The notes beneath the pieces are model-generated. The model was not told the origin of the DNA, did not search any database, and saw nothing but the letters and a program-made list of their open reading frames with translations. Positions 5,544-42,621 of a stretch of DNA of 64,000 bases are shown in pieces (position 1 is the first letter of the stretch; every line of letters begins with the position of its first letter). The stretch is from Actinoallomurus spadix. Lineage in GTDB: Bacteria; Actinomycetota; Actinomycetes; Streptosporangiales; Streptosporangiaceae. The DNA is taken from the NCBI RefSeq assembly GCF_024055725.1, contig NZ_JAMXMX010000003.1, positions 62,001 to 126,000 on the forward strand. Direction: 5' to 3'. Both the position numbers and the translations under genes were made by a program.

Positions 5544-6704
5544 GTGATCGACGCGGGATTGCTGATGACGGAGTTGACCGGTCGTGGGGTGAGCCAGGTG
5601 AGCGGCGTGCCCTGCTCCTTCCTCACGCCGATCATCAACAGGGCGATCAGCGATCCGAATGTCGGCTACCTACCGGTCACGCAGGAGGGCGAGGCGGTGG
5701 CGCTGGCCGCCGGCGCATGGCTCGGCGGAGGGCTGGGCTGCGTGATCAGCCAGAATTCCGGGCTGGGCAATATCGTGAACCCGCTCACCTCGCTCCTGCA
5801 TCCCTGCCGGATTCCGGCGCTCCTCATGATCACGTGGCGGGGACGGCCCGGGCGGCCGGACGAGCCGCAGCACGAGCTGATGGGCATGGTGACCGAACCT
5901 CTCCTGGCCCTCCTCCGCGTCGACTCCTCGCGGCTGCCCGCTGATCAGGGGCGGCTCAAGGAGGTCTTGGATCGTTCCTTCGAGGACCTGAACGACGATC
6001 GGTCGCACGCCCTGGTCGTCGACCACGGCGTCGTCGCCGCCGAACCGCTGAGCGAACCCGAACCGGGCGTTCTGCCCGAAGCGCGGATCCACCGCGCGCA
6101 CCGGCCTCTCCCAGGGGCGACGGTACGCCGCGTGGAGGCCCTCCAGCGGCTCCTCGAGATCATCCCGGACGAGGCCGCCGTGGTGTCGACGACCGGGAAG
6201 ACGAGCCGCGAACTGTTCACCATCGCCGACCGTCCGCAGAACTTCTACGTGGTCGGGGCGATGGGCTCGGCCGCCATGGTCGGGTTGGGCGTGGCGCTGC
6301 ACTCCCCGCGTCCCGTCGTCGTCGTGGACGGTGACGGCGCGCTGCTCATGCGGCTGGGGTCACTGGCCACCGTCGGCGCGCAGGCGCCCGACAACCTGGT
6401 CCACGTCGTCCTCGACAACGGCGTTCACGACTCCACCGGGGGGCAGCGGAGCCTGTCGGCCACGACCGACCTGCCGGCCGTGGCGGCGGCGTGCGGCTAC
6501 GCGCGGGTCTACGAGTGCGTGGACCTCGGCGCCTTCGAGGCCGGCCTCAAGGACTCCCTGTACGCCACCGGCCCCTCCCTGATCCACCTGCGGATCACCC
6601 CCGGCTCGCTGGCGAAGCTGGGCAGGCCGACCGTGCACCCCGCGGACGTGGCGAGCCGGTTCCGCGACTTCGTCAGGACGGCGCGCGTCGCGCAGACCCG
6701 GTGA
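5544..6704 (+). CDS. ppd: Phosphonopyruvate decarboxylase
   Basis: A 386-residue thiamine diphosphate enzyme predicted to convert phosphonopyruvate to phosphonoacetaldehyde, the irreversible step that pulls the unfavourable PEP mutase reaction forward. The N-terminal Pyr half (SGVPCSFLTPIIN, VTQEGEAVALAAGAWLGGG with the TPP-activating Glu, SQNSGLGNIVNPLTSL) and the C-terminal PP half (VVVDGDGALLMRLG, then VLDNGVHDSTGGQ: the GDG...N metal/diphosphate motif) are both complete. Length is typical (~380). GTG at 5544 is preceded by GGAGG at 6 bases, while the frame upstream of it is not protein-like. It stands alone on the plus strand, 30 kb from pepM, an unusual separation. Confidence 0.93.
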   Translation: MIDAGLLMTELTGRGVSQVSGVPCSFLTPIINRAISDPNVGYLPVTQEGEAVALAAGAWLGGGLGCVISQNSGLGNIVNPLTSLLHPCRIPALLMITWRGRPGRPDEPQHELMGMVTEPLLALLRVDSSRLPADQGRLKEVLDRSFEDLNDDRSHALVVDHGVVAAEPLSEPEPGVLPEARIHRAHRPLPGATVRRVEALQRLLEIIPDEAAVVSTTGKTSRELFTIADRPQNFYVVGAMGSAAMVGLGVALHSPRPVVVVDGDGALLMRLGSLATVGAQAPDNLVHVVLDNGVHDSTGGQRSLSATTDLPAVAAACGYARVYECVDLGAFEAGLKDSLYATGPSLIHLRITPGSLAKLGRPTVHPADVASRFRDFVRTARVAQTR

Positions 6705-6731
6705 GTGAGACGCCGGGCCGGGCACGGAAAC

Positions 6732-6776
6732 AGGGACGGGGACGGGGACGGGGACGGGGACGGGGATGGGGACGAG
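6732..6776. repeat. GGGGAC hexanucleotide tandem repeat
   Basis: Seven or so imperfect tandem copies of the hexamer GGGGAC (one reads GGGGAT) lie in the 104-base space between the convergent ends of the phosphonopyruvate decarboxylase and a TetR gene. It is a simple sequence repeat prone to slippage; the G runs on the plus strand could form a quadruplex in the transcript. No coding role is evident. Confidence 0.8.
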
Positions 6777-6808
6777 AACGGCGCACGGGCGCGACGAGGG
6801 GGAAGGGT

Positions 6809-7501
6809 TCAGCGGCCCTTCTCCTCCTCGGCGCCGCTCTCCGCGGCCTTCTTCGCGAAATGCTCCGAGATAGCCAGGCAGACCTCGACCCATGTGTCGA
6901 GGAACCGGTCGTCGTCGAGCCCGAGCGGCTTCTGCCCATAGATCGACTCGAGCATGCGGTAATACCCCATCGAGCCGGAGATGATCAGTGCGAGTGACTC
7001 GGCGTCGACCCCCTCCAGGCCGTCGGAGGCGGTCACCTGCGCGATCCACCGGGCGATCTCCCGGTGCGGCCGGTCGTGGACGGCCTCCCGGACGTCGTCC
7101 ACCAGCCCGGGCACCACGTCGCCCTCCTGGCGTACGAGCCGCAGCAGCGGCTCCCGGTTGGTCAGCTCCTGAAGATTCCACCGGCCCAGCATGATGAGCT
7201 CGGACCGGAAGTCGGCGAGCGGGAGAAGGTCCATCACCGAGACGACCCGCTCCAGGTCCTCGATCTGCTTGCGCACGCCCGCGCGCAGGACCTCTTCCTT
7301 ACTCGCGAAGTGCTGGTACAGGGCACCCGAGCGGGGGGCCAGGCCGGCGCGGCTCTCGATGTCGGCGACCGTGGTGTTGCGGTATCCGCGCTCGGCGAAC
7401 AGCTCCATGGCCGCCGTGATCATGCGATCGCGCGTCGCCCCGGATCGATCGCCGGAACCGGCCGGCCGCTTACGCCGTGCGGCCTGGTCATCTTTCTTCA
7501 T
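6809..7501 (-). CDS. TetR family transcriptional regulator
   Basis: A 230-residue TetR-family protein. A basic, disordered N-terminus of about 22 residues (KKDDQAARRKRPAGS) precedes the helix-turn-helix (MITAAMELFAERGYRNTTV, DIESRAGLA, GALYQHFASK, residues about 28-72). The ligand domain is unassigned. It lies just downstream of, and on the same strand as, the MBL hydrolase gene, within the cluster; it may be a pathway-specific repressor or answer to the product or an intermediate. Targets cannot be read from sequence. Confidence 0.85.
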   Translation of the reverse strand: MKKDDQAARRKRPAGSGDRSGATRDRMITAAMELFAERGYRNTTVADIESRAGLAPRSGALYQHFASKEEVLRAGVRKQIEDLERVVSVMDLLPLADFRSELIMLGRWNLQELTNREPLLRLVRQEGDVVPGLVDDVREAVHDRPHREIARWIAQVTASDGLEGVDAESLALIISGSMGYYRMLESIYGQKPLGLDDDRFLDTWVEVCLAISEHFAKKAAESGAEEEKGR

Positions 7502-7574
7502 CTTTGCCTTCCACCGCCTTCACTGGATGAACGATAACAGCGATGTGCTGGACGAATACGCTGAGGTTCACTCG

Positions 7575-8327
7575 TCATTCAAGGTTCACCACGAGCCCGT
7601 CCGCGGCGATCTCGAAGCCGGCGACCGGCAGGTCGTCGAGGACGTCGGCGGACATGTGGGTGAGGATCACCCGGCCGGCGCCGATCGATCGGCGGTGGGC
7701 GACGAGGTCGGCGAGGCGCAGATGGTACGGAATCGCCTTGTCGCGGTAGTAGGCCTCTGCGATGAGCAGGTCCGTGTCCCGGGCGGCCTCGACGATCGCG
7801 TCGGTCCAGGCGGTGTCGCCCGTGTACGCCACCGCGCGGCCGCCGACCGTGACGCGGAGGATCAGGGCGGGAGCGCCGCTCGGATGGTCGGCCGCCCACG
7901 TGGTGACCTCGGTCCCGGCGACCGTCGCCGTCGTGCCGGGCGGCAGTTCCGTCACCTCGACCGGGAAGGCCCGCCGCGCCGTGGAGGATCCCGGGAACAG
8001 CACCTCCATCGCCTCGGTGAGCCGCCGTCCGGTGCCCGGCGGGCCGGCGATCAGGAGCGGCTCCCGGCGGCGGGAGAACTGCCCGTCCAGGATGAGGAAG
8101 GGAAGCCCACCGAAATGATCTCCATGCAGGTGCGAGACGATCACCGCGCCGATCTCGCCGGGCGGCAGCCCGAACCGCTTCAGCGCGGTCAGCGAGGTGG
8201 CGCCGCAGTCCAGCAGGACGGGCGCGTCGTCGGCGCGGGCGCGGACGTGGACGCACGCCTGGAACCGTCCGCCGCTGCCGAACGCGTCCCCGCACCCGGC
8301 GAAGGTCACGGTCACCGGTCCGGTCAT
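7575..8327 (-). CDS. Metallo-beta-lactamase-fold hydrolase (RNase Z/PhnP-like group)
   Basis: A 250-residue MBL-fold protein. VIVSHLHGDHFGG (about residues 61-73) holds the HxHxDH zinc motif, YTGDTAW the bridging Asp, and LTHMSAD a late His, as in RNase Z-like phosphodiesterases and related arylsulfatase-type enzymes. The family includes PhnP, a cyclic ribose-phosphodiesterase of phosphonate metabolism, so a phosphoester- or phosphonate-linked substrate is conceivable here, but the fold is too widespread to decide. It is divergent from the ptxD homologue with only 35 bases between starts, suggesting co-regulation. Confidence 0.8.
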   Translation of the reverse strand: MTGPVTVTFAGCGDAFGSGGRFQACVHVRARADDAPVLLDCGATSLTALKRFGLPPGEIGAVIVSHLHGDHFGGLPFLILDGQFSRRREPLLIAGPPGTGRRLTEAMEVLFPGSSTARRAFPVEVTELPPGTTATVAGTEVTTWAADHPSGAPALILRVTVGGRAVAYTGDTAWTDAIVEAARDTDLLIAEAYYRDKAIPYHLRLADLVAHRRSIGAGRVILTHMSADVLDDLPVAGFEIAADGLVVNLE

Positions 8328-8362
8328 GTCGAGGTCGCCTTCCGTGTCGGGGGTCCGTGGTC

Positions 8363-9355
8363 ATGAGACCCCGTGTGGTCGTGACGCACTGGGTGCACGA
8401 TGAGGTCGCACGCCGTCTCGCCGGGTTCTGCGATCCGCGCATCCCGACCCGGGCCGAGGGCGTGTGGCCCCGTGACCGGATCGCGGAGCTGGCCGCCGAC
8501 GCCGACGGGCTGATCGTATGCATGGCCGACCGCGTCGACGCGGAGCTTCTCGACGGATGTCCCCGGCTGCGGATCGTGAGCGGGACGCTGAAGGGCCACG
8601 ACAACCTGGACGTGGCGGCCTGCACACGACGCGGCGTGTGGGTGACGGTCCTGCCGGACCTGCTGACCGTGCCGACGGCCGAGCTGACGGTCGGGCTCAC
8701 CATCGGCGTCATGCGCAGGATCGGGGAAGGCGACCGGTTCGTGCGCTCCGGAACCTTCGCGGGCTGGCGTCCGCGGTTGTACGGGTCCGGTCTGGCCGGC
8801 GCGACCGTCGGCATCGTCGGCATGGGCCGCGTCGGCCGCGCGGTCGCCCGCCGGCTGGCGGCGTTCGACGCGCACGTCGTCCACAACGACGTGCGGCCCG
8901 AGGCGGGCGGCGTCGGGCTGCCCGACCTGCTGGCGACGAGCGACGTGGTGATCCCGCTGCTCCCCCTCACGCCCGCGACGCGTGGCCTCATCGGCGCGGG
9001 TGAGCTGCGGCGGATGCGGCCGGGAGGGTACGTCGTCAACGTGTCCCGCGGCTCGGTCGTGGACGAGGAGGCGATCGCCGACGCCCTGGACGCCGGCACC
9101 CTGGCCGGGTACGCGGCCGACGTGTTCGCCATGGAGGACCTGCTGCAGGCGGGGCGGCCCCGTACCGTGCCGCCGAGGCTGTCGGCTCATCCGCGCACGC
9201 TCTTCACGCCGCACCTGGGGTCGGCCGTCGACGACGTACGGCGGCGGATGTCGCTCGCGGCGGCGGAGCAGGTCCGGCAGGTCCTCGACGGGCGGCGGCC
9301 GGAGCAGGCGGTGAACGACCCGGCGTGCCGTCCCGAGGCCGGCGGCATCACCTGA
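8363..9355 (+). CDS. ptxD: Phosphite (phosphonate) dehydrogenase homologue
   Basis: A 330-residue D-2-hydroxyacid dehydrogenase-family protein that I recognise as very close to Pseudomonas PtxD (NAD-dependent oxidation of phosphite to phosphate). Residues known to matter in PtxD have equivalents: Lys77 in TLKGHDN, Trp135 and Tyr140 in FAGWRPRLYG, Arg229 in VSRGSVVDE, Glu258 in FAMEDL, His284 and Ser287 in FTPHLGS. The Rossmann loop is GMGRVG (153-158). ATG 8363 aligns with the PtxD start; a GTG six bases earlier is possible. In a phosphinate cluster it could oxidise phosphite released from a labile P-H compound, act on an H-phosphinate intermediate, or protect the host. The hydroxyacid-dehydrogenase alternative is less likely given the motif match. 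Confidence 0.85.
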   Translation: MRPRVVVTHWVHDEVARRLAGFCDPRIPTRAEGVWPRDRIAELAADADGLIVCMADRVDAELLDGCPRLRIVSGTLKGHDNLDVAACTRRGVWVTVLPDLLTVPTAELTVGLTIGVMRRIGEGDRFVRSGTFAGWRPRLYGSGLAGATVGIVGMGRVGRAVARRLAAFDAHVVHNDVRPEAGGVGLPDLLATSDVVIPLLPLTPATRGLIGAGELRRMRPGGYVVNVSRGSVVDEEAIADALDAGTLAGYAADVFAMEDLLQAGRPRTVPPRLSAHPRTLFTPHLGSAVDDVRRRMSLAAAEQVRQVLDGRRPEQAVNDPACRPEAGGIT

Positions 9356-9427
9356 TCGCCCTCGGCCGGAGCGGACGGTGTACGGCCCGCCGTACCGTCC
9401 CGGGACCGGCGGCATCACCTGATCGCC
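9324..9427. repeat. Duplicated 37-base segment spanning the convergent ends of ptxD and the alcohol dehydrogenase
   Basis: Copies at 9324-9360 and 9391-9427 match at 34 of 37 positions, with the last 22 bases identical (ending ...GGCATCACCTGATCGCC). The first copy holds the last codons and stop of ptxD; the second contains the end of the opposing alcohol dehydrogenase frame. The duplication therefore straddles two convergent 3' ends. Confidence 0.85.
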
Positions 9428-10575
9428 ATCAGTTCGTCCAGGACGCCGGGGAGGGTGAGGGCCACCGGGTTCCCGGCGGAGCGGTTGTGCCCGAGTCCCG
9501 CCGTGGCGAGGGCCTCCACGTCCGCGCGGGCGGTCACGCCGTACGCGCCGAGACGGTCCGGCAGACCGGCCCGGGCCAGCAGCGCGGCGGGTGTCGCCGC
9601 CCCGATCAGGCCGTCCAGCTCGGCGAGCCGGTCGCGCAGGTACGCGGCGCCGCGGGCGTCCTGGCAGGCGGTGCCCGCCCGGCGTGCGTTGTACTCCAGC
9701 ACCCAGCGGAGGTTCAGCAGGCAGGCGAGGCCGTGCGGCACGCCGTGGCGGATCGTCAGCCGGTAGGCGAACGCGTGCGCGGCCGTCGTCCGCGTCACGT
9801 CGATCGCCCGCCCGGCGGCGCACGCGGCCGTCGCCAGGCCGGCGCGGTCGGCCGGCCGGAGGGCGGTGAAGTCCGCGGTGAGGAGGATGGGGGTCATCAG
9901 CCGCAGCGCCGTACGCGCCGCCTCCCGGGAGGCCGGCGTCGAACGGCGGCTCCAGAACGACTCGACGGCGTGGCAGTAGGCGTCGAACGCACACGGGTAG
10001 GCCACCTCCGGCGGGCAGCCGCGCAGCAGGTCCGGGTCGACCAGCGCGACGTCGGGGCGGACGCCGCCGTGGTCGAGGGATCTCTTCTCCCCGTCCACGA
10101 AGACGGTCGCGAACCGGGTGACCTCGCTGCCGGTGCCCGCGGTGGTGGGGATCGCGACCAGCGGAACGCGGGGGCGCCCGGGCGGGCCGGAGCGGCCGTC
10201 GACGACCGCCCGCGCCGCGGCCGGGTCTGCGGGCAGCGCACGGATGAGTTTGGCGGTGTCCAGGGCGCTGCCGCCGCCGACCGCGACGATGGCCTGCGGG
10301 TCCCAGTCGTCCCGGACCGCGCAGCCGCGCAGTGCCTGCTCCAGCCGGGGATTGGGTGAGAACCCCGAGAAGAGGCGGACGCCGTCGCCGGAGAGCACCT
10401 CCCGCAGGCCGGTGCGGACGAACCCGCTCTCCGACGCGACGACGAGGACCCGGCGGGCCCCGCGGTCCGTGACGATCTCACCGGCCAGACGCGACGCCCC
10501 GCCGCCCGACAGGACCGTCAACGGCGCTGCCTTCGGATCGTCGAGCCGCAGCCTCGTCACGGCGGGACGCGTCAC
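9415..10575 (-). CDS. phpC: Iron-containing alcohol dehydrogenase (phosphonoacetaldehyde reductase type)
   Basis: A 386-residue group III metal-dependent alcohol dehydrogenase. Cofactor motif VAVGGGSALDTAK lies near residue 98; IPTTAGTGSEVT and metal ligands in FDAYCHAVE and HGVPHGLA are present. In phosphonate pathways this family reduces phosphonoacetaldehyde to 2-hydroxyethylphosphonate (PhpC, FomC), the substrate needed by the HEPD gene in this window, so that role is inferred. The GTG start overlaps the rmlB stop by 4 bases (GTGA), translationally coupling it to deoxysugar genes, strong evidence that sugar and phosphonate genes serve one product. It is last in the leftward operon beginning near 17.6 kb. 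Confidence 0.87.
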   Translation of the reverse strand: MTRPAVTRLRLDDPKAAPLTVLSGGGASRLAGEIVTDRGARRVLVVASESGFVRTGLREVLSGDGVRLFSGFSPNPRLEQALRGCAVRDDWDPQAIVAVGGGSALDTAKLIRALPADPAAARAVVDGRSGPPGRPRVPLVAIPTTAGTGSEVTRFATVFVDGEKRSLDHGGVRPDVALVDPDLLRGCPPEVAYPCAFDAYCHAVESFWSRRSTPASREAARTALRLMTPILLTADFTALRPADRAGLATAACAAGRAIDVTRTTAAHAFAYRLTIRHGVPHGLACLLNLRWVLEYNARRAGTACQDARGAAYLRDRLAELDGLIGAATPAALLARAGLPDRLGAYGVTARADVEALATAGLGHNRSAGNPVALTLPGVLDELMAIR

Positions 10576-11552
10576 CGCACGCCCGCCTCGGCGGGGGGCA
10601 TCGCCCGGCGTTCGGGCCGGGCACGGTACCAGTCGACCACCTCCGCCAGCCCGCGGTCGAACGGAACGGCCGGGGCGTACCCGAGCTCGCGCCGGATCTT
10701 CGAGTCGTCGAGCGCGTAACGCAGGTCGTGTCCCTTACGGTCGGCGACGCGCTGGACCATGCTCCAGTCCGCGCCGCACAGCTCCAGCAGCCGTCCGGTG
10801 AGCTCGCGGTTGCTGAGCGGCTCGCCGCCGCCGACGTGGTAGATCTCCCCCGCCCTGCCGCGCGTGAGGACGAGGTGCACGGCCCGGCAGTGGTCGGCGA
10901 CGTGCAGCCACTCCCGTACGTTGTGGCCCTCGCCGTACAGCGGTACGGGCCGGCCGGCGAGCAGCCGGGTGACGAAGCCGGGGATGAGCTTCTCGGTGTG
11001 CTGCCGCGGCCCGTACGTGTTGCAGGACCGGGTGATCCGCACGTCCAGGCCGTGCGTGCGGACGTGGGAACGGGCGAGGAGGTCGGCGGCCGCCTTCGAC
11101 GCGGCGTACGGCGAGTTGGGGCGCAGCGGCTCATCCTCCGTCCACGAGCCGGTGGGGATCGACCCGTAGACCTCGTCCGTCGAGACCTGCACGATGGGTC
11201 CCACCCCGGCCGCGCGGCACGCGTCCAGCAGCGTCTGGGTGCCGAGGACGTTGGTGACCACGAAGTCGCCGGCCGCCGCGATGGAGCGGTCGACGTGCGA
11301 CTCCGCCGCGAAGTGCACGACGGCGTCATGGCCCGGGAGCAGGTCGCGGAGGAGGTCCGCCGAGCAGACGTCCCCCTCGACGAAGTCCAGCCGCGGGTGC
11401 GCGGCCGGCAGGTTCGCCCGGTCGCCGGCGTAGGTGAGCTTGTCCAGCACGGTCACGCGGGCGCCGGCGGTGCCCGGGTAACCGCCGTCCAGCACGGTGC
11501 GCACGTAGTGGGACCCGATGAATCCCGCGCCGCCGGTGACGAAGATCCTCAT
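10572..11552 (-). CDS. rmlB: dTDP-glucose 4,6-dehydratase
   Basis: A 326-residue extended SDR. TGGAGFIGSHYV at residues 6-17 binds NAD; HFAAESHVDRS, STDEVYG and the catalytic YAASK are all present, with sugar-binding NTYGPRQ and KLIPGF. It makes dTDP-4-keto-6-deoxyglucose, the branch point for the aminodeoxysugar. ATG 11552 overlaps the upstream rmlA stop by 4 bases (ATGA), and its own stop overlaps the alcohol dehydrogenase start. Length and motifs are typical. Confidence 0.95.
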   Translation of the reverse strand: MRIFVTGGAGFIGSHYVRTVLDGGYPGTAGARVTVLDKLTYAGDRANLPAAHPRLDFVEGDVCSADLLRDLLPGHDAVVHFAAESHVDRSIAAAGDFVVTNVLGTQTLLDACRAAGVGPIVQVSTDEVYGSIPTGSWTEDEPLRPNSPYAASKAAADLLARSHVRTHGLDVRITRSCNTYGPRQHTEKLIPGFVTRLLAGRPVPLYGEGHNVREWLHVADHCRAVHLVLTRGRAGEIYHVGGGEPLSNRELTGRLLELCGADWSMVQRVADRKGHDLRYALDDSKIRRELGYAPAVPFDRGLAEVVDWYRARPERRAMPPAEAGVR

Positions 11553-12607
11553 GCCGCGACCTCGATACGCGTGTCGTCTCCGATGAGGAGGCGATGGCGC
11601 CGCCTTCCCGCGGTGACCTCGGCGCCCCGGCCGATCAGCGAGTCCTCGATGCCGGTGACCCCGGTGACGGTGGCGTGGTCGAGCACGATCGAGCCGCGGA
11701 TCCCGGCGGACGTGATCACGCATCCCGCGCCGATCGACGTGTGCGGGCCGATCCGGCTGTCGCGTACGACGCTGCCCGGCCCGACGATGACCGGCCCGGT
11801 CAGCTCGGACCCGATGACCGTCGCGTCCTCGGCGACGATCACCTCCCCGGTGAGCGTGCTGGCGGCGTCCGCCCGGCCCCGGGCGCCGGCGCGCAGCCCG
11901 TCGAGGACGAAGCGGTTGCAGTCCAGCAGATCGTCGATCTTCCCGGTGTCCTTCCAGTAGCCCGAGTACTCCTCCCCGAGCACGTCGTGGCCCTCCGCGA
12001 CGAGGAGCCCGATGGCATCGGTGATCTCCAGTTCGCCGCGGCGGCTCGGCCGGACCCGCCGCACCGCGTCGTGGATCGCCGGGGTGAAGAAGTAGACGCC
12101 GATCAGCGCGAGGTCGCTCCGCGGCGACTCGGGCTTCTCCGTCAGTGCGGTCACCCTCCCGTCGCCGTTCAGCTCCGCCACACCGTAGTCGCGCGGGTCG
12201 TCGACCTTGCCGACGAGGACGGCCGCGCTCGGCCGCCGCGCGCGGAACAGCTCCGCGGCGGGCGCGAGACCGTCGAAGAGGATGTTGTCGCCGAGGTACA
12301 TCACGAAGTCCTCGTCGCCGAGGAACCCCGCGGCGACCCGCACGCAGTGCGCGAGGCCGAGCGGCGACGGCTGTTCGATGTAGGTGACCCGGACTCCGGC
12401 GCGCGAACCGTCGCCGATCGCCGCGCGGATCTGGTCGGCCTGCCCGCCGACGACGATGCCGACCTCGTCGACGCCGATCTCGCGGACGCATTCCAGGCAG
12501 TACGACAGCACGGGCCGGCCGGCCACCGGCATCAGCTGCTTGGGCATCGCGTGCGTGAACGGGCGCAGGCGCGTCCCCGTACCGCCGGCCAGGATCAATG
12601 CCTTCAT
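11549..12607 (-). CDS. rmlA: Glucose-1-phosphate thymidylyltransferase (long form)
   Basis: A 352-residue nucleotidyltransferase. It begins MKALILAGGTGTRLRPFTH, the nucleotide-binding signature, followed by PKQLMPVAGRPVLSY, YLGDNILFDG and VLTEKPESPRS-type motifs. The C-terminal ~110 residues form a left-handed beta-helix-like repeat (VIGSELTGPVIVGPG..., ITSAGIRGSIVLDHATV) found in the long actinomycete form used in antibiotic deoxysugar pathways. It activates glucose-1-phosphate with dTTP. It follows the P450 gene by 12 bases and overlaps rmlB. Confidence 0.94.
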   Translation of the reverse strand: MKALILAGGTGTRLRPFTHAMPKQLMPVAGRPVLSYCLECVREIGVDEVGIVVGGQADQIRAAIGDGSRAGVRVTYIEQPSPLGLAHCVRVAAGFLGDEDFVMYLGDNILFDGLAPAAELFRARRPSAAVLVGKVDDPRDYGVAELNGDGRVTALTEKPESPRSDLALIGVYFFTPAIHDAVRRVRPSRRGELEITDAIGLLVAEGHDVLGEEYSGYWKDTGKIDDLLDCNRFVLDGLRAGARGRADAASTLTGEVIVAEDATVIGSELTGPVIVGPGSVVRDSRIGPHTSIGAGCVITSAGIRGSIVLDHATVTGVTGIEDSLIGRGAEVTAGRRRHRLLIGDDTRIEVAA

Positions 12608-12619
12608 CAGGCTCCTTCG

Positions 12620-13843: not shown

Positions 13844-13846
13844 GGC

Positions 13847-17605: not shown

Positions 17606-17656
17606 CGCCTCTCCAGATCCTCGAATCGGTGTCCGGCGAAGACTCGCATCGGCGAC

Positions 17657-35544: not shown

Positions 35545-36482
35545 AGGGCGTCACCGGCCGAGGCGGGCACCGGTCGCGCCGCGAGATGCGCGCCGACGTC
35601 GGCGTAGCGCAGTTCCTCGGCCTCCAGTTCCTCGTACCGCATGAGGGCGAAGATCTCCTTGAGCGGCGTGATCTCGGCCTCGATGGCCGCCACCCCGCCG
35701 CTCTGCAGGATCCGGGAGCACGCGTCGCGCACCGCGGCCACCTCGGCGCGCAGGGTCTGGTTGGCCCAGATCACCCCGTTGATCCCGAGCCGGCCGAACT
35801 CCTCCAGCGACGTGGCGTAGTACGTGGTCGGCGCGATGACGAGGGGCGCCCGGCCGCCCCACTGGCGGGCGAAGTCCGCGATCTGCTCCACCGTCGACTG
35901 CCGCGAGTGGATGAAGATGGCGTCCGCCCCGGCCTCCCGGTAGCGATCGGCCCGGTCCAGCGCCTCGGCCACGGACCGGCCGGCGATCAGCGCCTCGACC
36001 CGTGCGACGACCACGAAGCCGTCGTCGTTCTGCGCGTCCTTGCAGGCGGCGATCTTGCCGCAGAACTCCCCGACCGGCGCCAGGCGGTGATCGTCGCCCA
36101 CGAAGGAGTTCATCTTCGGGAAGATCTTGTCCTCGATGCAGATCCCCGCCACGCCGACGCGTTCGGCCTTGATGGAGAATCGCCTGGCGGTGTTGAAGTT
36201 GCCGTACCCGGTGTCCGCGTCCACGAGGACCGGGGCGGGAGTGTTCGCGGTCATCGTCTCGACGACGGCGAGCAGCTCCGACCAGGTCGCCTCGTCGCTG
36301 TCGCGCACGCCCAGAGCGGTGGACATGCACAGGCCCGAGGCCCACAGCGCGGGGAATCCCGCCGCCGTGGCGATGCGGGCGCTCAGACCGTTGTAGACGC
36401 CCATGATCTGGCAGGGCTCCGCGCCGGTGAGCAGGGACCGTAGTCCGTGCCCGGGCGAGGTCACAGCAAGGCTTTCGTCCAT
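35541..36482 (-). CDS. pepM: Phosphoenolpyruvate mutase
   Basis: A 313-residue enzyme converting PEP to phosphonopyruvate, the C-P bond-forming entry to nearly all phosphonate natural products. The diagnostic EDKIFPKMNS (residues 117-126) matches the PEP mutase signature EDKxxPKxNS; VDADTGYGN (87-95) binds Mg2+. Length is typical. It sits mid-operon, 10 bases after the 2-hydroxyacid dehydrogenase and overlapping the nucleotidyltransferase. This is the firmest single marker that the cluster makes a phosphonate or phosphinate. Confidence 0.97.
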   Translation of the reverse strand: MDESLAVTSPGHGLRSLLTGAEPCQIMGVYNGLSARIATAAGFPALWASGLCMSTALGVRDSDEATWSELLAVVETMTANTPAPVLVDADTGYGNFNTARRFSIKAERVGVAGICIEDKIFPKMNSFVGDDHRLAPVGEFCGKIAACKDAQNDDGFVVVARVEALIAGRSVAEALDRADRYREAGADAIFIHSRQSTVEQIADFARQWGGRAPLVIAPTTYYATSLEEFGRLGINGVIWANQTLRAEVAAVRDACSRILQSGGVAAIEAEITPLKEIFALMRYEELEAEELRYADVGAHLAARPVPASAGDAL

Positions 36483-36492: not shown

Positions 36493-37503
36493 TCAGGCGA
36501 CGCGGCCGTCGATCGGCGGGACGTCCTCGACCAGGACGGTGCGGACGCCGGCCGCCACGCGACGCCGCAGACTCAGTTCCGACTCCTCGGACAGGAAGGC
36601 GCGGTGAGACGAGACGATCACGTTGTCGCGGGTGAGGAGTTCACGCGTGACCGCCGAGCGGTTGGGATCCTCGGGAGAGAAGACGTCCGAGGCGAATCCG
36701 GCGAGCCGCCCATCGTCCAGCGCGCCCCGGACCGCGCCCGGGTCGACCAGCCGGCCCCGGGCGGTGTTGACGAGGAGACATCCCGGCTTGACGGCGGCGA
36801 GCGCGCGCTCGTCGATCAGGTGATCCGTCTCGTCGGTCAGCTCCGCGTGCAGGACGACGGCGTCGACGGTGGCGAGCAGGTCGTGCAGCGACCCGGCGTG
36901 CCGTACGCCGTGGCCGGCCATCACGTCGGCCGCGACGTACGGATCGTAGGCGTGCACCCGGTCGTAGAAGGGCTGCAGCTTGCGCGCCGAAGCCCGCCCG
37001 ATCCGGCCGAATCCGACGATCCCGACGCTCCGCTCCGCGACCCGTCGCGGAACACCACCGGCGTGGATTCCCCACTGCCGCGACTTGACCAGACGGTCCT
37101 GCACGCAGACGCCACGTTCGAGCGCGAGGAGCAGGGCCGCCGTGTGGGTCGTCACCTCGTCCCCGCAGTAGTCCGGCACGTGGAAGCCGTACACGCCCCA
37201 CTCGACCAGGGAGGGGATGTTCAAGTTGTCCAGCCCGACGCCGCTTCTCGCGATCACCCGGCAGGACGGCTTGACCACGGCGAGCAGCTCGGGCGTCACC
37301 TGGCACCGGTAGACGACCAGGGCGTCCGCCCCCTCGGCGTACGCCAGGAAGGCGTCCCCGGAGGTGACGTAGCCGTCGTCGTACAGCCCCAGGTCCAGCT
37401 CCACCTCAGGGCCGAACACCTCGCGCTCGACCCAGGCCAGTGCCGGATCGGGGCGGTCCCGGCCGGCGATCGCCCACGCCGGATCGGTATAGAGGACCCG
37501 CAC
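36493..37503 (-). CDS. D-2-hydroxyacid dehydrogenase (PhpE-like)
   Basis: A 336-residue NAD-dependent dehydrogenase related to phosphoglycerate dehydrogenase/CtBP. VGIVGFGRIGRASA is the Rossmann motif; VNTARGRLVD carries the substrate Arg; a Glu-Asp pair lies in FSPEDPN and the catalytic-His loop reads VSSHRAF. Phosphinothricin clusters carry such a gene (phpE) next to HEPD, where it is thought to help oxidise hydroxymethylphosphonate. I chose GTG 37503, which follows GGGGGAG by five bases; GTG 37521 is also open. Confidence 0.84.
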   Translation of the reverse strand: MRVLYTDPAWAIAGRDRPDPALAWVEREVFGPEVELDLGLYDDGYVTSGDAFLAYAEGADALVVYRCQVTPELLAVVKPSCRVIARSGVGLDNLNIPSLVEWGVYGFHVPDYCGDEVTTHTAALLLALERGVCVQDRLVKSRQWGIHAGGVPRRVAERSVGIVGFGRIGRASARKLQPFYDRVHAYDPYVAADVMAGHGVRHAGSLHDLLATVDAVVLHAELTDETDHLIDERALAAVKPGCLLVNTARGRLVDPGAVRGALDDGRLAGFASDVFSPEDPNRSAVTRELLTRDNVIVSSHRAFLSEESELSLRRRVAAGVRTVLVEDVPPIDGRVA

Positions 37504-37548
37504 GTCCGCTCCCCCTTTCACTCGTCGCTCGAATGACGCCGGCGCCGG

Positions 37549-38868
37549 TCAGCGCTGGTAGCCCCAGCCGGACAGGTCCCGGTGGCCGCGGCGCAGCGTC
37601 GCGGCGGGCTCGTAGGTGTTGGTCAGCTCGAACAGGTCCAGGTAGCCGACGTGGCCGCCGGAGTTGAACTTCAGCACCGCGCCGGTGCCGCGCCACCGGT
37701 GGGCCACGAACGGGGCCACCCAGGCGGACCCGTCCGCGGACAGCCTCGCCGTGGCGGGCTCCCCCCGCTCGTCCACCCAGTCGAGGTGCGGTTCCCCGTC
37801 GGTGACCAGGTAATGCGTCTCGTTGTCGTCGTGCCGCATCGGCACGTCGCCGTCGTCCGCGGCGACCTTGACGAAGAGGCCGGACAGGTCCGGCAGGTGC
37901 GGGGCGCCGGCCATCGACGCGACCTCGTACGGCCCGAACGGCCGGATGGACTCCCGCGACTCCTCGACGGTCCGGCAGGTCTTGCCCACGGCGTCGTGGC
38001 GCCGCACCGCCGGCAGGAGCAGCCGGTAGTCGATGCCCAGCTCGGCGCCCAGCGCGCGGAGCGTGTCGAGCGACGCGGGGAGCGAGCCCGGGTCGACGCC
38101 GAGCCTGGCGGCCGCGGTCTCATCGGTGTACCCGCGCCGGGCGAGCGCCAGCCGGAGCAGTTCCTCCGGTGCCAGCCCGCCCTTCTCAATGAACTGCGAC
38201 CAGCGCTCGAAGGCGGGCTCCGGCCAGGTGTTGTTCTCCTCGATCAGGGCCGCGAGGTTGGAATCGGCGGTGTAGGAGACGATCCGCGCGGGGACGTCGC
38301 CGGCCAGCGCGTAGCTGTGCGGGCAGTAGGACGGCTCCACATAGGAGTCACCGGTGATCCACCGGTCCGCGCCGGTGTTGGCCGCCAGCACGCGCCACGT
38401 GTCATCGGACAGCTCCTCTCCCCAGCGACCGTGGATGTCCCCCGGCCCGAGGTTGACGGTGATCGCGGGCTCGAGGTGACCGTTGTTGAGGGCGGGCAGC
38501 CGGTCCGCCGGGCAGAGGATGTCCAGGATCACCGGCGCGACGCGGCCCTCCGGCCCGGCCATCGAGTAGTAGTCGTAGAAGTGGATCCCGTCGCGCTGGA
38601 TGGGGCGCCGCGTCCGGTACATCTCCTCGGCGGAGCGGACCAGCACGGCGCGACCCGCACCGGCGGCGGCGATGAGCCGGCCGGTCTCGACCGCCAGGCC
38701 CGTGGCGAGCCGTCCGAGCCGCTCGTCGTCGATCTCCACCGGGCCTGACGCGTGCAGCGTCGACTCCAGGAACGCCTGGTCGACCCCGGCCAGTTCGGCG
38801 AGCCGTCCCGGCGTGAGCTTTCGCGCGTTCATCCAGCGAACGAACTTGAACGGATCGAGATTCGGCAC
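37549..38868 (-). CDS. phpD: 2-Hydroxyethylphosphonate dioxygenase (HEPD)
   Basis: A 439-residue non-haem Fe(II) oxygenase that cleaves the C-C bond of 2-hydroxyethylphosphonate to hydroxymethylphosphonate and formate. The iron triad is visible: His131 (NNGHLEPA), Glu178 and His184 (SYVEPSYCPH), offset by two from the known HEPD numbering. Glu rather than Gln at the second ligand position argues for HEPD over methylphosphonate synthase. The protein has two helix-turn-helix-like and two cupin-like repeats, as expected. GTG 38868 follows GAGGAG. First gene of the long leftward operon. Confidence 0.95.
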   Translation of the reverse strand: MPNLDPFKFVRWMNARKLTPGRLAELAGVDQAFLESTLHASGPVEIDDERLGRLATGLAVETGRLIAAAGAGRAVLVRSAEEMYRTRRPIQRDGIHFYDYYSMAGPEGRVAPVILDILCPADRLPALNNGHLEPAITVNLGPGDIHGRWGEELSDDTWRVLAANTGADRWITGDSYVEPSYCPHSYALAGDVPARIVSYTADSNLAALIEENNTWPEPAFERWSQFIEKGGLAPEELLRLALARRGYTDETAAARLGVDPGSLPASLDTLRALGAELGIDYRLLLPAVRRHDAVGKTCRTVEESRESIRPFGPYEVASMAGAPHLPDLSGLFVKVAADDGDVPMRHDDNETHYLVTDGEPHLDWVDERGEPATARLSADGSAWVAPFVAHRWRGTGAVLKFNSGGHVGYLDLFELTNTYEPAATLRRGHRDLSGWGYQR

Positions 38869-39014: not shown

Positions 39015-39047
39015 GTGCGGCACCGAACCTCATCGAGACCCCGGTGA
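39015..39047 (+). CDS. Possible 10-residue leader peptide upstream of the Nramp gene
   Basis: A perfect Shine-Dalgarno sequence, AAGGAGGTGA (39001-39010), lies a few bases before GTG 39015, which opens a 10-codon frame (product MRHRTSSRPR) whose TGA overlaps the Nramp GTG as GTGA. The Nramp start itself has no good ribosome-binding site and its frame is closed by a TGA at 39008. Translation of the leader could therefore be needed to deliver ribosomes to the transporter. It may also be chance. Confidence 0.42.
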   Translation: MRHRTSSRPR

Positions 39048-40282
39048 CCGGCGAGCGGACCATCCCCCGGCCGTCCCCCACCGCGGCACGGCCGCGCGCC
39101 CGGCTGGTCACGGCACTCGGACCGGCCGTCATCGCCGCCGTCGCGTACATCGACCCGGGGAACGTCGCCACCAACGTCGCCGCCGGCTCGCGCTACGGGC
39201 ATCTGCTGGTCTGGGCCGTCGTCTCCGCCAGCTCCTTCGCCGTGATCGTGCAGTACCTGTCGGCGAAGGTGGGCCTGGCGACCGGCCGGACCCTCCCGCA
39301 GCTCTGCCGGGAACGGTTCGGCCGGCGCGCCGCCCGGCTGCTGTGGATCCAGGCCGAGTGCGTCGCCGCCGCGACCGACGTGGCGGAGGTGATCGGCGGC
39401 GCGATCGCGCTGCGCATCCTGTTCGGCCTGCCCCTGCTCGCCGGCGGCATCATCGTCAGCGGGGCGTCCCTGCTGGTGCTCCAGGTCCAGACCTCCCGGG
39501 GCCAGCGCGGCTACGAACTCGTCGTCGGGGCACTGTTCACCTGCGCCGTGGCCGGGTTCTGCTGGCCCACCATCGCCGGCGGGCCGGACCCGGCGGCGAT
39601 CACCGCGGGCATGATCCCCCGGATCACCGACCACGGCAGCGAGGTCCTGGTCGCCGGGATCGTGGGGGCGACGATCATGCCCCACGCCGTCTATCTCCAC
39701 TCGGCGCTGGTCACCCGCAGATTCGGCACCGTCCTGGCGTCCGACCGGCGGCACCGCCTGCTGCGCGCCACGCGGTGGGACGTGGGCGTCGCCATGACGG
39801 TCGCCACCGCCGCGAACGTCGCCCTGCTCGTCGCCGCGGCCGAATACCTGCGGGGCGCCCCCATCGAGGACATCGTGCAGGCGCACGCCGGACTGCGGCA
39901 CGCGGCCGGTCCGGTCCTGGCGACGCTCTTCGCGCTCGCCCTGCTGGCCTCCGGCCTGGTGTCCTCATCGGTCGGAACCCACGCCGGCGCCGTCATCATG
40001 GAAGGCTTCCTCGGCCGCCGCACCCCGCTCGCGGTGCGCAGACTCGTCGTCCTCGTCCCCGCGCTCGCCACCCTCGCCTCCGGCGTCGATCCCGGGGAGG
40101 CGCTGATCCTCACCCAGGTGATCCTGAGCTTCGGGATCCCGTTCGCCCTCCTGCCGCTGATCGTGTTCACCCGCGACCGCCGGCTCATGGGCGACCTCGT
40201 CAACCGCCGGACGACGACCGCAGCGGCCGGTCTCGGCACGCTGGCGGTCCTGGCCATCAGCCTGTTCACCCTCGTCAGCTGA
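39044..40282 (+). CDS. Nramp-family divalent metal transporter
   Basis: A 412-residue, about 11-helix proton-coupled Mn2+/Fe2+ importer. The metal-binding helix 1 motif is AYIDPGNVATN and helix 6 has GATIMPHAVYLHS (MPH). The cluster uses iron or divalent metals at HEPD, the iron alcohol dehydrogenase, the Rieske protein and P450, so local metal supply is a reasonable role; export of a metal-complexed product is not excluded. Translation probably depends on the short upstream frame. ACP gene follows 16 bases downstream. Confidence 0.88.
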   Translation: MTGERTIPRPSPTAARPRARLVTALGPAVIAAVAYIDPGNVATNVAAGSRYGHLLVWAVVSASSFAVIVQYLSAKVGLATGRTLPQLCRERFGRRAARLLWIQAECVAAATDVAEVIGGAIALRILFGLPLLAGGIIVSGASLLVLQVQTSRGQRGYELVVGALFTCAVAGFCWPTIAGGPDPAAITAGMIPRITDHGSEVLVAGIVGATIMPHAVYLHSALVTRRFGTVLASDRRHRLLRATRWDVGVAMTVATAANVALLVAAAEYLRGAPIEDIVQAHAGLRHAAGPVLATLFALALLASGLVSSSVGTHAGAVIMEGFLGRRTPLAVRRLVVLVPALATLASGVDPGEALILTQVILSFGIPFALLPLIVFTRDRRLMGDLVNRRTTTAAAGLGTLAVLAISLFTLVS

Positions 40283-40298: not shown

Positions 40299-40562
40299 AT
40301 GTCGCTGAACCAGCAGCAGATCTTCGAGGCGGTCGCGCAGATCCTCACGAAGACCGTCGGCGTGCCGCGCGACGCGATCGCACCCGGTAAGACCCTCAAG
40401 GAGGACCTGGAGATCGACTCCCTCGACACCGTCGAGGTCCTCGTGGCCGCCGAGGACGACTTCGGATTCCGGATCCCCGACGAGGACGCCGCCGCGATGA
40501 CGACGATCCAGGACATCGTCGACTACGTGTACGAACACCAGCCGGAGCGGGCCGTCTCCTGA
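40299..40562 (+). CDS. Acyl carrier protein
   Basis: An 87-residue type II ACP. Ser41 in LEIDSLDTVEVL is the phosphopantetheine site; the protein is acidic with the expected four-helix pattern (ILTKTVGV, FGFRIPDEDAAAMTTIQDIVDYV). It has its own GAAAGG site. It is probably the carrier for the FabF-like ketosynthase and the acyl donor for the alpha-oxoamine synthase in the opposite operon. No phosphopantetheinyl transferase is present in the window. Confidence 0.93.
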   Translation: MSLNQQQIFEAVAQILTKTVGVPRDAIAPGKTLKEDLEIDSLDTVEVLVAAEDDFGFRIPDEDAAAMTTIQDIVDYVYEHQPERAVS

Positions 40563-40670: not shown

Positions 40671-40701
40671 CGGGCGAGCGGGCGAGCGGGCGAGCGGGCG
40701 C
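40671..40701. repeat. GGGCGAGC octamer tandem repeat
   Basis: Three full and one partial copy of an 8-base unit (CGGGCGAG phase) abut the stop codon of the response regulator gene. A short simple repeat with no visible function. Confidence 0.75.
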
Positions 40702-41307
40702 TCAGAGCCATCCGGCGTTCACGGCGATGCGGACGGCGTCCACCCGGTTGCGCGCGCCCAGCTTGCTGACCGCCGACGCCAGGTAGTTGCGCACGGTTCC
40801 CTGCGACAACGACAGCCGGTCACCGATCTCCGGCAGATTCGCACCGTCCGCGATCAGCCCGAGGACCCTGCTCTCCTGAGTCGTGAGCGGGTTGTCGGCG
40901 AACTCCAGCGCGGCCAGGGCCAACTGGGGATCGATCATCCGATGCCCCTCGGCGACCTTGCGGATCGCATCCGCGAGTTCGGCCGCGGAGGCGTCCTTCA
41001 GCATGAATCCCGTGATGCCCGCGTCCAGCGCACGACGGAGATAGCCGGGCCGGCCGAGACCGGTGAGGATGAGCGTCCGGCACGCCGGGACACGATCGTG
41101 GAGCTCGGCGGCCACGGTGAGCCCGTCCTTACCGGGCAGGTCGATGTCGATGACCGCGACGTCCGGCGCCGTCTCCGCCGCTCGCGGCAGGACCGCGGGG
41201 CCGGACTCGACGGCCGCGACCACGTCGATGCCCTCGGCCAGATCGAGTAACGTCACGAGAGCGTCGCGCAGTATTCGCACATCTTCGGCAAGCAGAACCC
41301 TGACCAT
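40702..41307 (-). CDS. NarL/LuxR-type response regulator
   Basis: A 201-residue regulator. Receiver domain residues 1-118: acidic pocket AEDV, phospho-acceptor Asp54 (VIDIDLPG), Thr in ILTGLG and Lys in FMLKDA. The C-terminal LuxR helix-turn-helix has LTTQESRVLGLIADGANLPEIGDRLSLSQGTVRNYL. Partner of the histidine kinase encoded 132 bases upstream on the same strand. It borders the biosynthetic genes and could set cluster expression; no binding site is known. Confidence 0.9.
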   Translation of the reverse strand: MVRVLLAEDVRILRDALVTLLDLAEGIDVVAAVESGPAVLPRAAETAPDVAVIDIDLPGKDGLTVAAELHDRVPACRTLILTGLGRPGYLRRALDAGITGFMLKDASAAELADAIRKVAEGHRMIDPQLALAALEFADNPLTTQESRVLGLIADGANLPEIGDRLSLSQGTVRNYLASAVSKLGARNRVDAVRIAVNAGWL

Positions 41308-41439
41308 GGTCCCCCCAGGGAAAAGCGAACCGATCCCCCTGTTTCAGCCAGACCTTAAAGGGGTGTCCCGGCAAAGTCCAGAGAGGCTTCCGGCATTCGG
41401 CAGAGCGCGAACGACGCCGTTCCCCGCCCCTTATCCCGG

Positions 41440-42621
41440 TTACGGCCGTGGGACGACCGCGGTGAGCCGGAATCGGCCGTCATTCGACACCCCCGCACTG
41501 AGGCTTCCCCCCACGACGGCGAGGCGGCCGGCGAGGTTGTCCAGTCCCTGGCCGTAACGGCCGGATCGGCGGCCGAATATGCCGGCCGGCCCATCGTTGC
41601 TGATCACCAGCCGGATCACGTCGTTCCCGGCGGACATCGTGATATCGCAGCGACGAGCCCGGCTGTGCCGGAGCACATTGGTGACGCCCTCACGGAGGAC
41701 GATCGCCAGCACGGTGTTCAGCTTCGCGTCGAGCACGCCGGGGGTGATGTCGACGCAGGTCTGAATGCCGGCCGTGGCCAGCACCAGTTTCGCGGACGCC
41801 ACCTCCGACTCCAGTGACAGCTGCCGATATCCGTTCGCGACGCTACGGACATCGGACAGCGCCTGACGTGAAAGCTTCACGATCATGTCGAGTTCCTGCC
41901 GCGCCAGATCCGGGTGCTGCGCCATCAGCTGATGGACGACCTCGCTCTTCAGGCTGATCGCCGACAGGCTGTACCCAAGGAGGTCGTGCAGGTCGCGCGC
42001 GAAGCGGCGCCGCTCACGCGCCACGGCGAAGCGGGCGATGTCGCCCCGGGCCTCGTGAACTCTCATGAGCAGGTCGGACAGCCGCGCCTGGGCCCAGCTG
42101 ATCTGGCCCATCACGGCCGTCAACGCCGTCAGATAGACGGTCTCCCGGAACGGCATGTGGAACATGGGACGGGCGAAGAAGACGCTCAGCACGATGAACG
42201 TGTAGGCCGTCCAGCCCGGGACACCGCGCACGAGCAGGAGAACGGAGCCGCCGAGAAAGCCGGCCACGTCCCCCCATTCGACGCCGTAGTACCAGAACGG
42301 GATGAAGGTGAGGAGGGCCTGCACGCAGAGCGTGCAGGCCCAGATCTTCGGGGACCTGTGGTCGGGCCGCGGGTAGGTGTGGAACAGCTGCAGTGCGACG
42401 ATCACGAGCATCGAGGCGGAGCAGACGCGCAGCGCCGCCGCGTTCGGCCGGTCCTCCAGCAGGTTGATCAGCGCGATGATCGACAGACTGGTCAAGGTGA
42501 GGACGACCGTGATGCGCGCCATTCGCATCGTCGGCACGCCCATCTGCCGATAGTCGCTGAACAACCCCTGATCATCTGGCGTATCGGCGGCGAGGACGGG
42601 CTCATCCGTTCGATCGGCCAT
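41440..42621 (-). CDS. Sensor histidine kinase (HisKA_3, DesK-like)
   Basis: A 393-residue membrane kinase. About six hydrophobic helices occupy residues 35-165, then the dimerisation/phospho-acceptor helix with RRRFARDLHDLLGYSLSAI (His), then an ATPase domain with an N-box-like region (REGVTNVLRHSRA) and a G-box (GRYGQGLDNLAGRLAVVGG). With no extracytoplasmic domain, it likely senses membrane state or a small intramembrane signal. It is transcribed before the response regulator. Confidence 0.9.
   Translation of the reverse strand: MADRTDEPVLAADTPDDQGLFSDYRQMGVPTMRMARITVVLTLTSLSIIALINLLEDRPNAAALRVCSASMLVIVALQLFHTYPRPDHRSPKIWACTLCVQALLTFIPFWYYGVEWGDVAGFLGGSVLLLVRGVPGWTAYTFIVLSVFFARPMFHMPFRETVYLTALTAVMGQISWAQARLSDLLMRVHEARGDIARFAVARERRRFARDLHDLLGYSLSAISLKSEVVHQLMAQHPDLARQELDMIVKLSRQALSDVRSVANGYRQLSLESEVASAKLVLATAGIQTCVDITPGVLDAKLNTVLAIVLREGVTNVLRHSRARRCDITMSAGNDVIRLVISNDGPAGIFGRRSGRYGQGLDNLAGRLAVVGGSLSAGVSNDGRFRLTAVVPRP

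Follow-up and report, generated by a model that had tools for sequence, protein, structure and literature searches.

Among the known systems nearest to the locus described here are the biosynthesis of phosphinothricin, bialaphos and phosalacine, represented by Kitasatospora phosalacinea NRRL B-16230 (locus L007), and that of sulfonolipids (capnine) in Bacteroidota, in which SulA/CFAT is the condensing enzyme. Capnine is the sulfur analogue of sphingosine-1-phosphate (PMC9304779), and H-phosphinates are made by actinomycetes (Ju et al. 2015, cited in PMC9231227). We analysed a 64,000-nucleotide stretch of Actinoallomurus spadix (the window, G000:C33:62001-126000), taken from an 8.02 Mb draft genome of 71 contigs that is 98% complete. 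Its gene cluster, we propose with moderate confidence, directs the synthesis of ‘phosphinocapnine’, a sphingoid-like lipid that is the H-phosphinate counterpart of capnine and is probably glycosylated.

With K. phosalacinea the window shares the early route and the gene order PhpF–PhpG–PhpH–carboxyphosphonoenolpyruvate (CPEP) mutase–aldehyde dehydrogenase, but it has neither a P-methylase above cut-off nor a match to the aconitase-type isomerase, AMP-binding/peptidyl carrier protein or acetyltransferase genes of that organism within 124 kb, and has instead a SulA-type oxoamine synthase, a short-chain dehydrogenase/reductase (SDR), an oxygenase and a ketosynthase. With sulfonolipid synthesis it shares a condensing enzyme with the same diagnostic lysine and an SDR in the same operon; the window differs in being actinobacterial, in placing these genes within a phosphinate operon, in the proposed amino acid, phosphinoalanine, and in that no cysteate-synthase-type gene was seen in the cluster. 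The H-phosphinates of Ju et al. 2015 likewise come from actinomycetes and are compared by product only.

Early route to phosphinopyruvate

Genes were chosen among open reading frames (ORFs) by codon-position GC content and translational coupling. Pfam was scanned with the 38 predicted genes of 5391-46815 and two further left, and NCBIfam with 30 of the 38. Phosphoenolpyruvate (PEP) mutase, PhpG and CPEP mutase all exceed curated cut-offs within one cluster, which places it in the CPEP-mutase phosphinate pathway. The early-route genes are:

5391-6704, plus strand: phosphonopyruvate decarboxylase (Ppd); TIGR03297, 383 bits, above the cut-off of 312.5
9415-10575, minus strand: iron-dependent alcohol dehydrogenase (Fe-ADH family), PhpC-like phosphonoacetaldehyde reductase; TIGR03405, 190 bits, below the cut-off of 424
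30245-31636, minus strand: aldehyde dehydrogenase (Aldedh), PhpJ-like, phosphonoformaldehyde step; relatives at 59-72% in 9/9 CPEP-mutase loci
31643-32524, minus strand: CPEP mutase, predicted to yield phosphinopyruvate; TIGR02319, 554 bits, above 420
32560-33747, minus strand: enolase-like CPEP synthase (PhpH); Enolase_C, 136 bits; relatives at 44-56% in 9/9 loci
33744-35024, minus strand: PhpG, CMP-5'-phosphonoformate--3-phosphoglycerate phosphonoformyl transferase (CMP, cytidine monophosphate); NF038358, 668 bits, above 545
35014-35544, minus strand: PhpF-like nucleotidyltransferase (CMP activation of phosphonoformate); CTP_transf_like; relatives at 55-76% in 9/9 loci
35541-36482, minus strand: PEP mutase (C–P bond formation); TIGR02320, 331 bits, above 319.6
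36493-37521, minus strand: PhpE-like hydroxyacid dehydrogenase; 2-Hacid_dh; relatives at 51-69% in 9/9 loci
37549-38868, minus strand: hydroxyethylphosphonate dioxygenase (HEPD), PhpD-like, 2-hydroxyethylphosphonate to hydroxymethylphosphonate; 528 bits to PhpD 3G7D

For PhpC, E, F, H and J, the naming and the step order follow the phosphinothricin literature; PhpG is the name in NCBIfam. Judged from these assignments, the early-route gene set is complete and ends at phosphinopyruvate. The homologues that an earlier, sequence-only reading of this DNA had listed from PEP mutase to CPEP mutase are all present, by NCBIfam cut-offs, the PhpD match, or family and locus relatives, and NF038358 adds PhpG, which that list lacked. 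The HEPD scores only 30 bits against methylphosphonate synthase (MPnS), far below its PhpD match. The PEP mutase carries the EDKxxxxxNS motif, as EDKIFPKMNS, and is the only protein in the whole genome to pass the TIGR02320 cut-off; three PF13714 matches outside the window, which lack the motif and fall under that cut-off, were rejected as a second PEP mutase. The Fe-ADH, the hydroxyacid and aldehyde dehydrogenases, the nucleotidyltransferase and the enolase-like protein all score under NCBIfam equivalog cut-offs; their assignment relies on family membership and on related genes at other CPEP-mutase loci, and is weakest for the Fe-ADH. Together with Ppd, the Fe-ADH gene sits at 5.4-10.6 kb, apart from a tightly packed minus-strand run of 17 genes (38868 to 20015; intergenic gaps of -116 to +35 nt). 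A second hydroxyacid dehydrogenase, at 8357-9355, is 34-36% identical to PhpE, and other clusters match it with their own PhpE only; it could reduce phosphinopyruvate to phosphinolactate.

The late phosphinothricin genes, which the same reading had held to be absent, were sought at two scales. The P-methylase model TIGR04479 (PhpK) reaches at best 80.6 bits in the whole genome, against a cut-off of 600; of 11 genomes compared, three exceed that value, namely OK074, K. phosalacinea and an Isosphaeraceae metagenome-assembled genome (MAG). The comparison for the isomerase, the synthase and the non-ribosomal peptide synthetase (NRPS) was confined to 124 kb of the same contig (C33:22001-146000), which was compared in six frames with 479 K. 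phosalacinea open frames of at least 60 amino acids over 70 kb (tblastn, E 1e-5), ten of the 479 not being scorable by BLAST. As a positive control, ten of ten early genes were recovered. Outside these there were four matches: a major facilitator superfamily (MFS) transporter 31 kb left of the window (38.7%), a LuxR-type regulator right of the window (41 bits), a Streptomyces antibiotic regulatory protein (SARP)-type regulator (36.9%) and one 43-bit match. Zero matches in the 124 kb were obtained with the K. phosalacinea ORFs identified by Pfam as aconitase-type isomerase, radical-SAM/B12 P-methylase, AMP-binding/peptidyl carrier protein and acetyltransferase, nor was there one to its condensation/AMP-binding protein. 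Phosphinomethylmalate synthase was not identified among the named K. phosalacinea ORFs and is covered by the unnamed frames only. The asserted absence extends to the P-methylase genome-wide and to the isomerase, NRPS and acetyltransferase within 124 kb, where none of the named late genes is matched. That the product is a phosphinate unlike the phosphinothricin peptides, as the sequence-only reading suggested, is well supported by the complete predicted route, the P-methylase scores and the unmatched named genes nearby.

An oxoamine synthase of the cysteate type

Mid-run, overlapping the aminotransferase gene by 4 nt, lies the gene on which the product prediction turns:

28983-30230, minus strand: SulA/CFAT-type alpha-oxoamine synthase, a candidate acyl-ACP transferase for phosphinoalanine (ACP, acyl carrier protein); assigned by structure matches, tree and Lys281

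Among solved chains it matches 28EH, ‘Cysteate-C-fatty acyltransferase’, best (421.7 bits), followed by 7U7H (415.5 bits), with serine palmitoyltransferase (SPT) at 196 and KBL at 167 bits, and it is 50-53% identical to SulA/CFAT. According to PMC9304779, 7U7H is SulA, a cysteate acyl-ACP transferase with acyl-ACP and cysteate as substrates, and Lys281, in place of Ala, is a difference between SulA and Spt. A 22-row tree places the enzymes of three phosphinate clusters, an orphan from genome G537, SulA and CFAT on one branch (support 100/100, length 1.1) that excludes SPT, KBL and other oxoamine synthases; the remaining 16 rows comprise two PDB chains plus 14 paralogues of fetched genomes, one outgroup row being long-branched. 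At the site of SulA Lys281, 6/6 branch members have lysine, whereas 16/16 others have Ala, Asn, Thr or Ser. All further SulA-type positions considered (the pyridoxal phosphate lysine, Asn53, His140, Asp217, His220 and Arg376) are kept in the window protein. A role like that of BioF, KBL or ALAS was rejected, the best NCBIfam model being bioF at 261 bits (cut-off 426) and the cysteate-enzyme structures lying ahead by more than 200 bits. By these comparisons, the window enzyme groups with the cysteate acyl-ACP transferases.

At E ≤ 1e-90 the enzyme was found in 2/394 genomes of a class sample and 2/341 of a family sample, namely its own and G537. The G537 orphan (L109:9754-11001; G537:C1, about 3496753-3498000) is 63% identical, comes from a genome of the same family and lies beside transposase remnants. 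A plasmid search returned five records with relatives of 38-53% (Bernardetia, Aureibacter, Spirosoma, Tunicatimonas and one Legionella) and zero actinobacterial ones. Bernardetia (L125), Aureibacter, Spirosoma and Tunicatimonas belong to the Bacteroidota; the plasmid relatives would fit an origin in sulfonolipid makers.

Proposed pathway and product

The proposal of phosphinocapnine follows from the SulA/CFAT type of the oxoamine synthase together with the isosterism of phosphinoalanine with cysteate, from which it differs solely in having P(O)(OH)H for SO3H. The early enzymes would convert PEP through phosphonopyruvate, phosphonoacetaldehyde, 2-hydroxyethylphosphonate, hydroxymethylphosphonate, phosphonoformate, CMP-phosphonoformate and CPEP to phosphinopyruvate. 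Further genes of the operon, and two on the opposite strand upstream of it, may account for the remaining steps:

27556-28986, minus strand: class III aminotransferase, HemL- and D-phenylglycine aminotransferase-like, proposed phosphinopyruvate transaminase; Aminotran_3; 193 bits to 2CY8
26736-27584, minus strand: SDR, proposed 3-keto reductase; adh_short
25658-26851, minus strand: amidohydrolase-fold dinuclear oxygenase (ARO); PF04909; 338 bits to 8SM7; true start probably further in
25293-25661, minus strand: small Rieske ferredoxin, proposed oxygenase partner; PF00355; CPH...CPYH
24044-25390, minus strand: FabF-type ketosynthase; TIGR03150, 509 bits, above 493.8; start probably near 25282
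23343-24047, minus strand: DedA/VTT membrane protein, possible lipid transporter; VTT_dom; DedA family 116 bits, under cut-off
21874-23346, minus strand: MFS exporter; relative in the Plantactinospora cluster, 55%
39044-40282, plus strand: Nramp Mn/Fe transporter; DPGN and MPH motifs; relative in the Plantactinospora cluster, 57%
40299-40562, plus strand: ACP; PP-binding, 46.6 bits, DSL site

Phosphinopyruvate would be transaminated to phosphinoalanine, either by the class III enzyme or by a housekeeping aspartate aminotransferase. A precedent is the conversion of phosphonopyruvate to phosphonoalanine by PnaA, an enzyme of aspartate-aminotransferase type (PMC11867202). The oxoamine synthase would then join phosphinoalanine to an ACP-held acyl chain, with loss of CO2, to give a 2-amino-3-oxoalkyl-1-H-phosphinate, whose ketone the SDR could reduce. 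The FabF-type ketosynthase, in which the Cys-His-His motifs are present, and the ACP may shape or deliver the acyl chain in this genome, and the use of acyl-ACP by SulA fits their presence in the cluster. The continuation of the operon claimed in the sequence-only reading holds for the oxoamine synthase, aminotransferase, SDR and ketosynthase; the ACP gene it included lies on the plus strand behind the Nramp gene, and the oxygenase and Rieske genes, which it did not name, are also in the operon.

The oxygenase, fed by the Rieske ferredoxin, is a candidate for C–H hydroxylation. AibH/SfbO-type proteins are dinuclear oxygenases whose genes lie beside those of small Rieske proteins (PMC10811679). 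The window protein matches 8SM7, 8SM8, 8SM9, SfbO (8SM6, 262 bits) and AibH (6M1W, 233 bits), and shares with all five chains the D-x-H, H, E and D-Y-P-H positions (ligand columns read by eye). It has in common with AibH/SfbO a PF04909 domain with three histidine and three carboxylate positions and an adjoining small Rieske gene, which overlaps its own by 4 nt, but not the sulfate pocket of SfbO, retention of which was rejected (Arg232 is His and Arg235 is Ile). A decarboxylase role for this Amidohydro_2 protein was also rejected (5-carboxyvanillate decarboxylase 67 bits and ACMSD 47 bits, against 338 for 8SM7). An Amidohydro_2-matching fragment lies at 42745-43104; it does not stem from recent duplication of the oxygenase gene. 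One may speculate that the Nramp transporter, which has relatives in both Micromonosporaceae clusters described below, supplies the oxygenase with metal.

The ketosynthase, ACP, DedA/VTT protein and SDR of this cluster hint at a lipid, as does the MMPL transporter of the Plantactinospora-type clusters, although each is weak alone. We give about even chances to sphingoid or capnine-type lipids with an H-phosphinate head on carbon 1, bearing here an aminodeoxysugar and a hydroxyl group from the dinuclear (perhaps Mn/Fe) oxygenase. The glycosylated phosphinate capnine structure is a prediction from homology and gene order.

Related clusters in other genomes

CPEP mutase is rare. Among the best 80 matches listed from 84,980 species genomes, nine are 68-82% identical and the rest at most 52%. 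The family passes its cut-off in 1/396 genomes of a phylum sample (its own only) and in 5/341 family genomes, its own included, three of which look like the Nonomuraea genomes of L010-L012 and do not enter the cluster counts a second time; a plasmid search with CPEP mutase gave no match. This oxoamine synthase occurs in 4 of 12 CPEP-mutase clusters (window, L006-L014, G717 and G1118), and in none of the 11 genomes tested for P-methylase do the two occur together.

Plantactinospora alkalitolerans (Micromonosporaceae) has, on one strand, HEPD, PhpE, PEP mutase, Ppd, a metallo-beta-lactamase (MBL)-fold protein, PhpF, PhpG, PhpH, CPEP mutase, aldehyde dehydrogenase, oxoamine synthase, aminotransferase, SDR, oxygenase and Rieske genes, in that order. 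Identities to the window are 68% for the oxoamine synthase, 72% for the aminotransferase, 60% for the SDR, 76% for the oxygenase and 55% for the Rieske protein. Upstream of this run are TetR, MFS and Nramp genes and a 35% relative of the Fe-ADH; downstream of the Rieske gene, there and in G1118, is an MMPL transporter, of a family of lipid exporters. G1118, the sole other positive in 240 Micromonosporaceae genomes, has the same arrangement at 83-98% identity to Plantactinospora from PhpE to Rieske (MMPL, 95%), and as a near relative is not an independent case. In Amycolatopsis anabasis the oxoamine synthase (60%) lies beside aldehyde dehydrogenase and CPEP mutase genes, and Ppd (41%) and PEP mutase (40%) are distant. 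Some 12 kb away from this oxoamine synthase gene are ketosynthase-like, AMP-binding and acyltransferase genes (L094:8221-13472), whose membership of the Amycolatopsis cluster is uncertain. The combination of PEP mutase, CPEP mutase and oxoamine synthase, which the sequence-only reading had proposed to look for elsewhere, does recur, as the whole run in Plantactinospora and G1118 and as an oxoamine synthase near CPEP mutase in Amycolatopsis. The same continuation in other genera argues against chance.

Other CPEP-mutase loci differ. The Nonomuraea, AC_30 and G717 clusters (L010-L013 and L104-L105, an actinobacterial MAG being among the sources) have CPEP mutase but neither a P-methylase over cut-off nor this SulA-type enzyme; they are possibly other H-phosphinate pathways. 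The locus of the Isosphaeraceae MAG (L014) has NRPS-like matches, with a P-methylase over cut-off in the same genome.

Nested sugar cassette and cluster borders

An aminodeoxysugar cassette at 10572-20008 is nested inside the phosphinate cluster, as shown by relatives of Plantactinospora-cluster genes on both of its sides:

10572-12607, minus strand: dTDP-glucose 4,6-dehydratase (RmlB-type; TIGR01181, 374 bits, above 365) and glucose-1-phosphate thymidylyltransferase (RmlA-type; TIGR01208, 384 bits, above 320); dTDP, deoxythymidine diphosphate
12620-15043, minus strand: glycosyltransferase of the activator-dependent type (TIGR04516, 332 bits, below the cut-off of 440) and P450 (heme-cysteine motif FGHGVHYCIG)
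15090-17605, minus strand: DesI-type 4-aminotransferase (TIGR04427, 561 bits, below the cut-off of 650) and RfbH/SpnQ-type 3-dehydrase (NF011936, 661 bits, above 423)
17751-20008, plus strand: nucleoside-diphosphate-hexose 2,3-dehydratase (PF03559, 455 bits) and Gfo/Idh 3-ketoreductase (GFO_IDH_MocA), SpnO/SpnN-like

The predicted sugar is a 4-amino-2,3,4,6-tetradeoxyhexose, which the glycosyltransferase would add to the product; nesting of the cassette suggests as much. The Spn comparison is with the forosamine pathway (SpnO, N, Q and R of spinosyn), with which the 2,3-dehydratase, 3-ketoreductase, 3-dehydrase and 4-aminotransferase (the last under its cut-off) are shared, but there is no N,N-dimethyltransferase of forosamine type among the Pfam-scanned genes. 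DesVIII-type activators are P450-like proteins without the heme cysteine; such a role for the P450 was rejected because its heme motif is normal and TIGR04515 gives 133 bits against 343.

The sugar genes could instead serve a separate product and merely be located between phosphinate genes. We regard this as unlikely. With tblastn they are unmatched in the stretches of Plantactinospora and G1118, and Amycolatopsis has only a distant DegT relative (32%), as a separate product would have it; yet the cassette is flanked by Plantactinospora-cluster relatives (TetR, MBL and Ppd to its left, MFS and the core to its right), the Fe-ADH gene overlaps the 4,6-dehydratase gene by 4 nt, and 5.4-43 kb shows no further scaffold pathway that is complete.

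Right of 48 kb, eight sampled genes are mostly housekeeping (EngA-type GTPase, cytidylate kinase, prephenate dehydrogenase, ScpA, integrase/XerD type and CTP synthase), which bounds the cluster to about 5.4-43 kb. It includes regulatory and other genes:

6809-8327, minus strand: TetR regulator and MBL-fold hydrolase; relatives in the Plantactinospora cluster, 65% and 51% identity
20015-21877, minus strand: SARP-type regulator; BTAD

A two-component pair at 40702-42621 is tied to the pathway by position only.

Alternative readings

Several observations weigh against phosphinocapnine. PMC9304779 leaves open the basis on which SulA selects cysteate, so the substrate is not readable from Lys281 alone. 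A composition test flagged three tree rows (CFAT, SulA and SPT). The phosphinate-cluster enzymes are not a separate group in the tree: the G537 orphan nests among them and pairs with that of the window (90/80), and G537 has no PEP mutase or CPEP mutase match at the thresholds used, so the clade is not bound to phosphinates. Within the window, the SDR reaches 149 bits for the 3-ketodihydrosphingosine reductase KdsR (cut-off 400), the fifth of 212 NCBIfam families, the SfbO sulfate-binding arginines are not kept in the oxygenase, and the ACP gene stands outside the operon. Elsewhere, neither the ketosynthase nor the sugar genes have a tblastn match in the Plantactinospora or G1118 stretches, where a short ACP could escape detection at the E-value used. 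Over 60 kb of Amycolatopsis, tblastn matches neither the aminotransferase nor the SDR, oxygenase or Rieske gene, and the cupin dioxygenase of that cluster (L095:4414-5808), which is of the methylphosphonate-synthase/6B9R type, matches methylphosphonate synthase 6B9S at 407 bits, HEPD 6B9R at 370 and PhpD at 25; these steps, and the PhpD-like one, are therefore not universal.

Some of this would suit a product that is no lipid. Phosphinoalanine may be condensed with a short or amino-acid-derived acyl group to give an H-phosphinate amino-ketone or amino-alcohol that is small and polar, may act as an antimetabolite, and whose amino group the HemL-like aminotransferase might shift. That aminotransferase is nearest to D-phenylglycine aminotransferase and to glutamate-1-semialdehyde aminomutases (up to 186 bits), which are small-substrate enzymes, and the unmatched ketosynthase and sugar genes point the same way. 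The clade-mates SulA and CFAT, however, are fatty acyl enzymes, and MMPL in the Plantactinospora-type clusters and DedA/VTT here suggest lipid handling; we consider a small polar product unlikely.

The clade and Lys281, shared with cysteate enzymes, and the existence of an orphan without phosphonate genes would also be compatible with ordinary 3-ketocapnine made from cysteate, the sulfonolipid being co-produced with, or joined to, a separate phosphinate. This is very unlikely, as the gene forms part of a phosphinate operon in the window, in Plantactinospora and in G1118, and has CPEP mutase as a neighbour in Amycolatopsis. A PALP domain is the type expected of a cysteate synthase; none was found among the Pfam-scanned cluster genes, and no genome-wide cysteate synthase search was made. 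A phosphinothricin-type compound with late genes elsewhere, for which the draft state of the genome leaves room, is the most improbable of all given the genome-wide P-methylase scores and the named late genes unmatched in 124 kb.

Implications

Recognition of a cysteate-type oxoamine synthase goes beyond the sequence-only reading in turning an unspecified phosphinate into a specific product prediction, phosphinocapnine. Our search of the literature on oxoamine synthases with phosphonates or phosphinates, capnine–phosphonate links, glycosylated phosphonates and phosphinate products, which extended to few subscription papers, found no such pathway. If the proposal is true, the product would closely mimic sphingosine-1-phosphate and would be, within the reach of these searches, the first phosphinate lipid. 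The diversion of phosphinopyruvate to a cysteate-type acyltransferase would then constitute a lipid branch of C–P metabolism, tied to sulfonolipid and sphingolipid synthesis.

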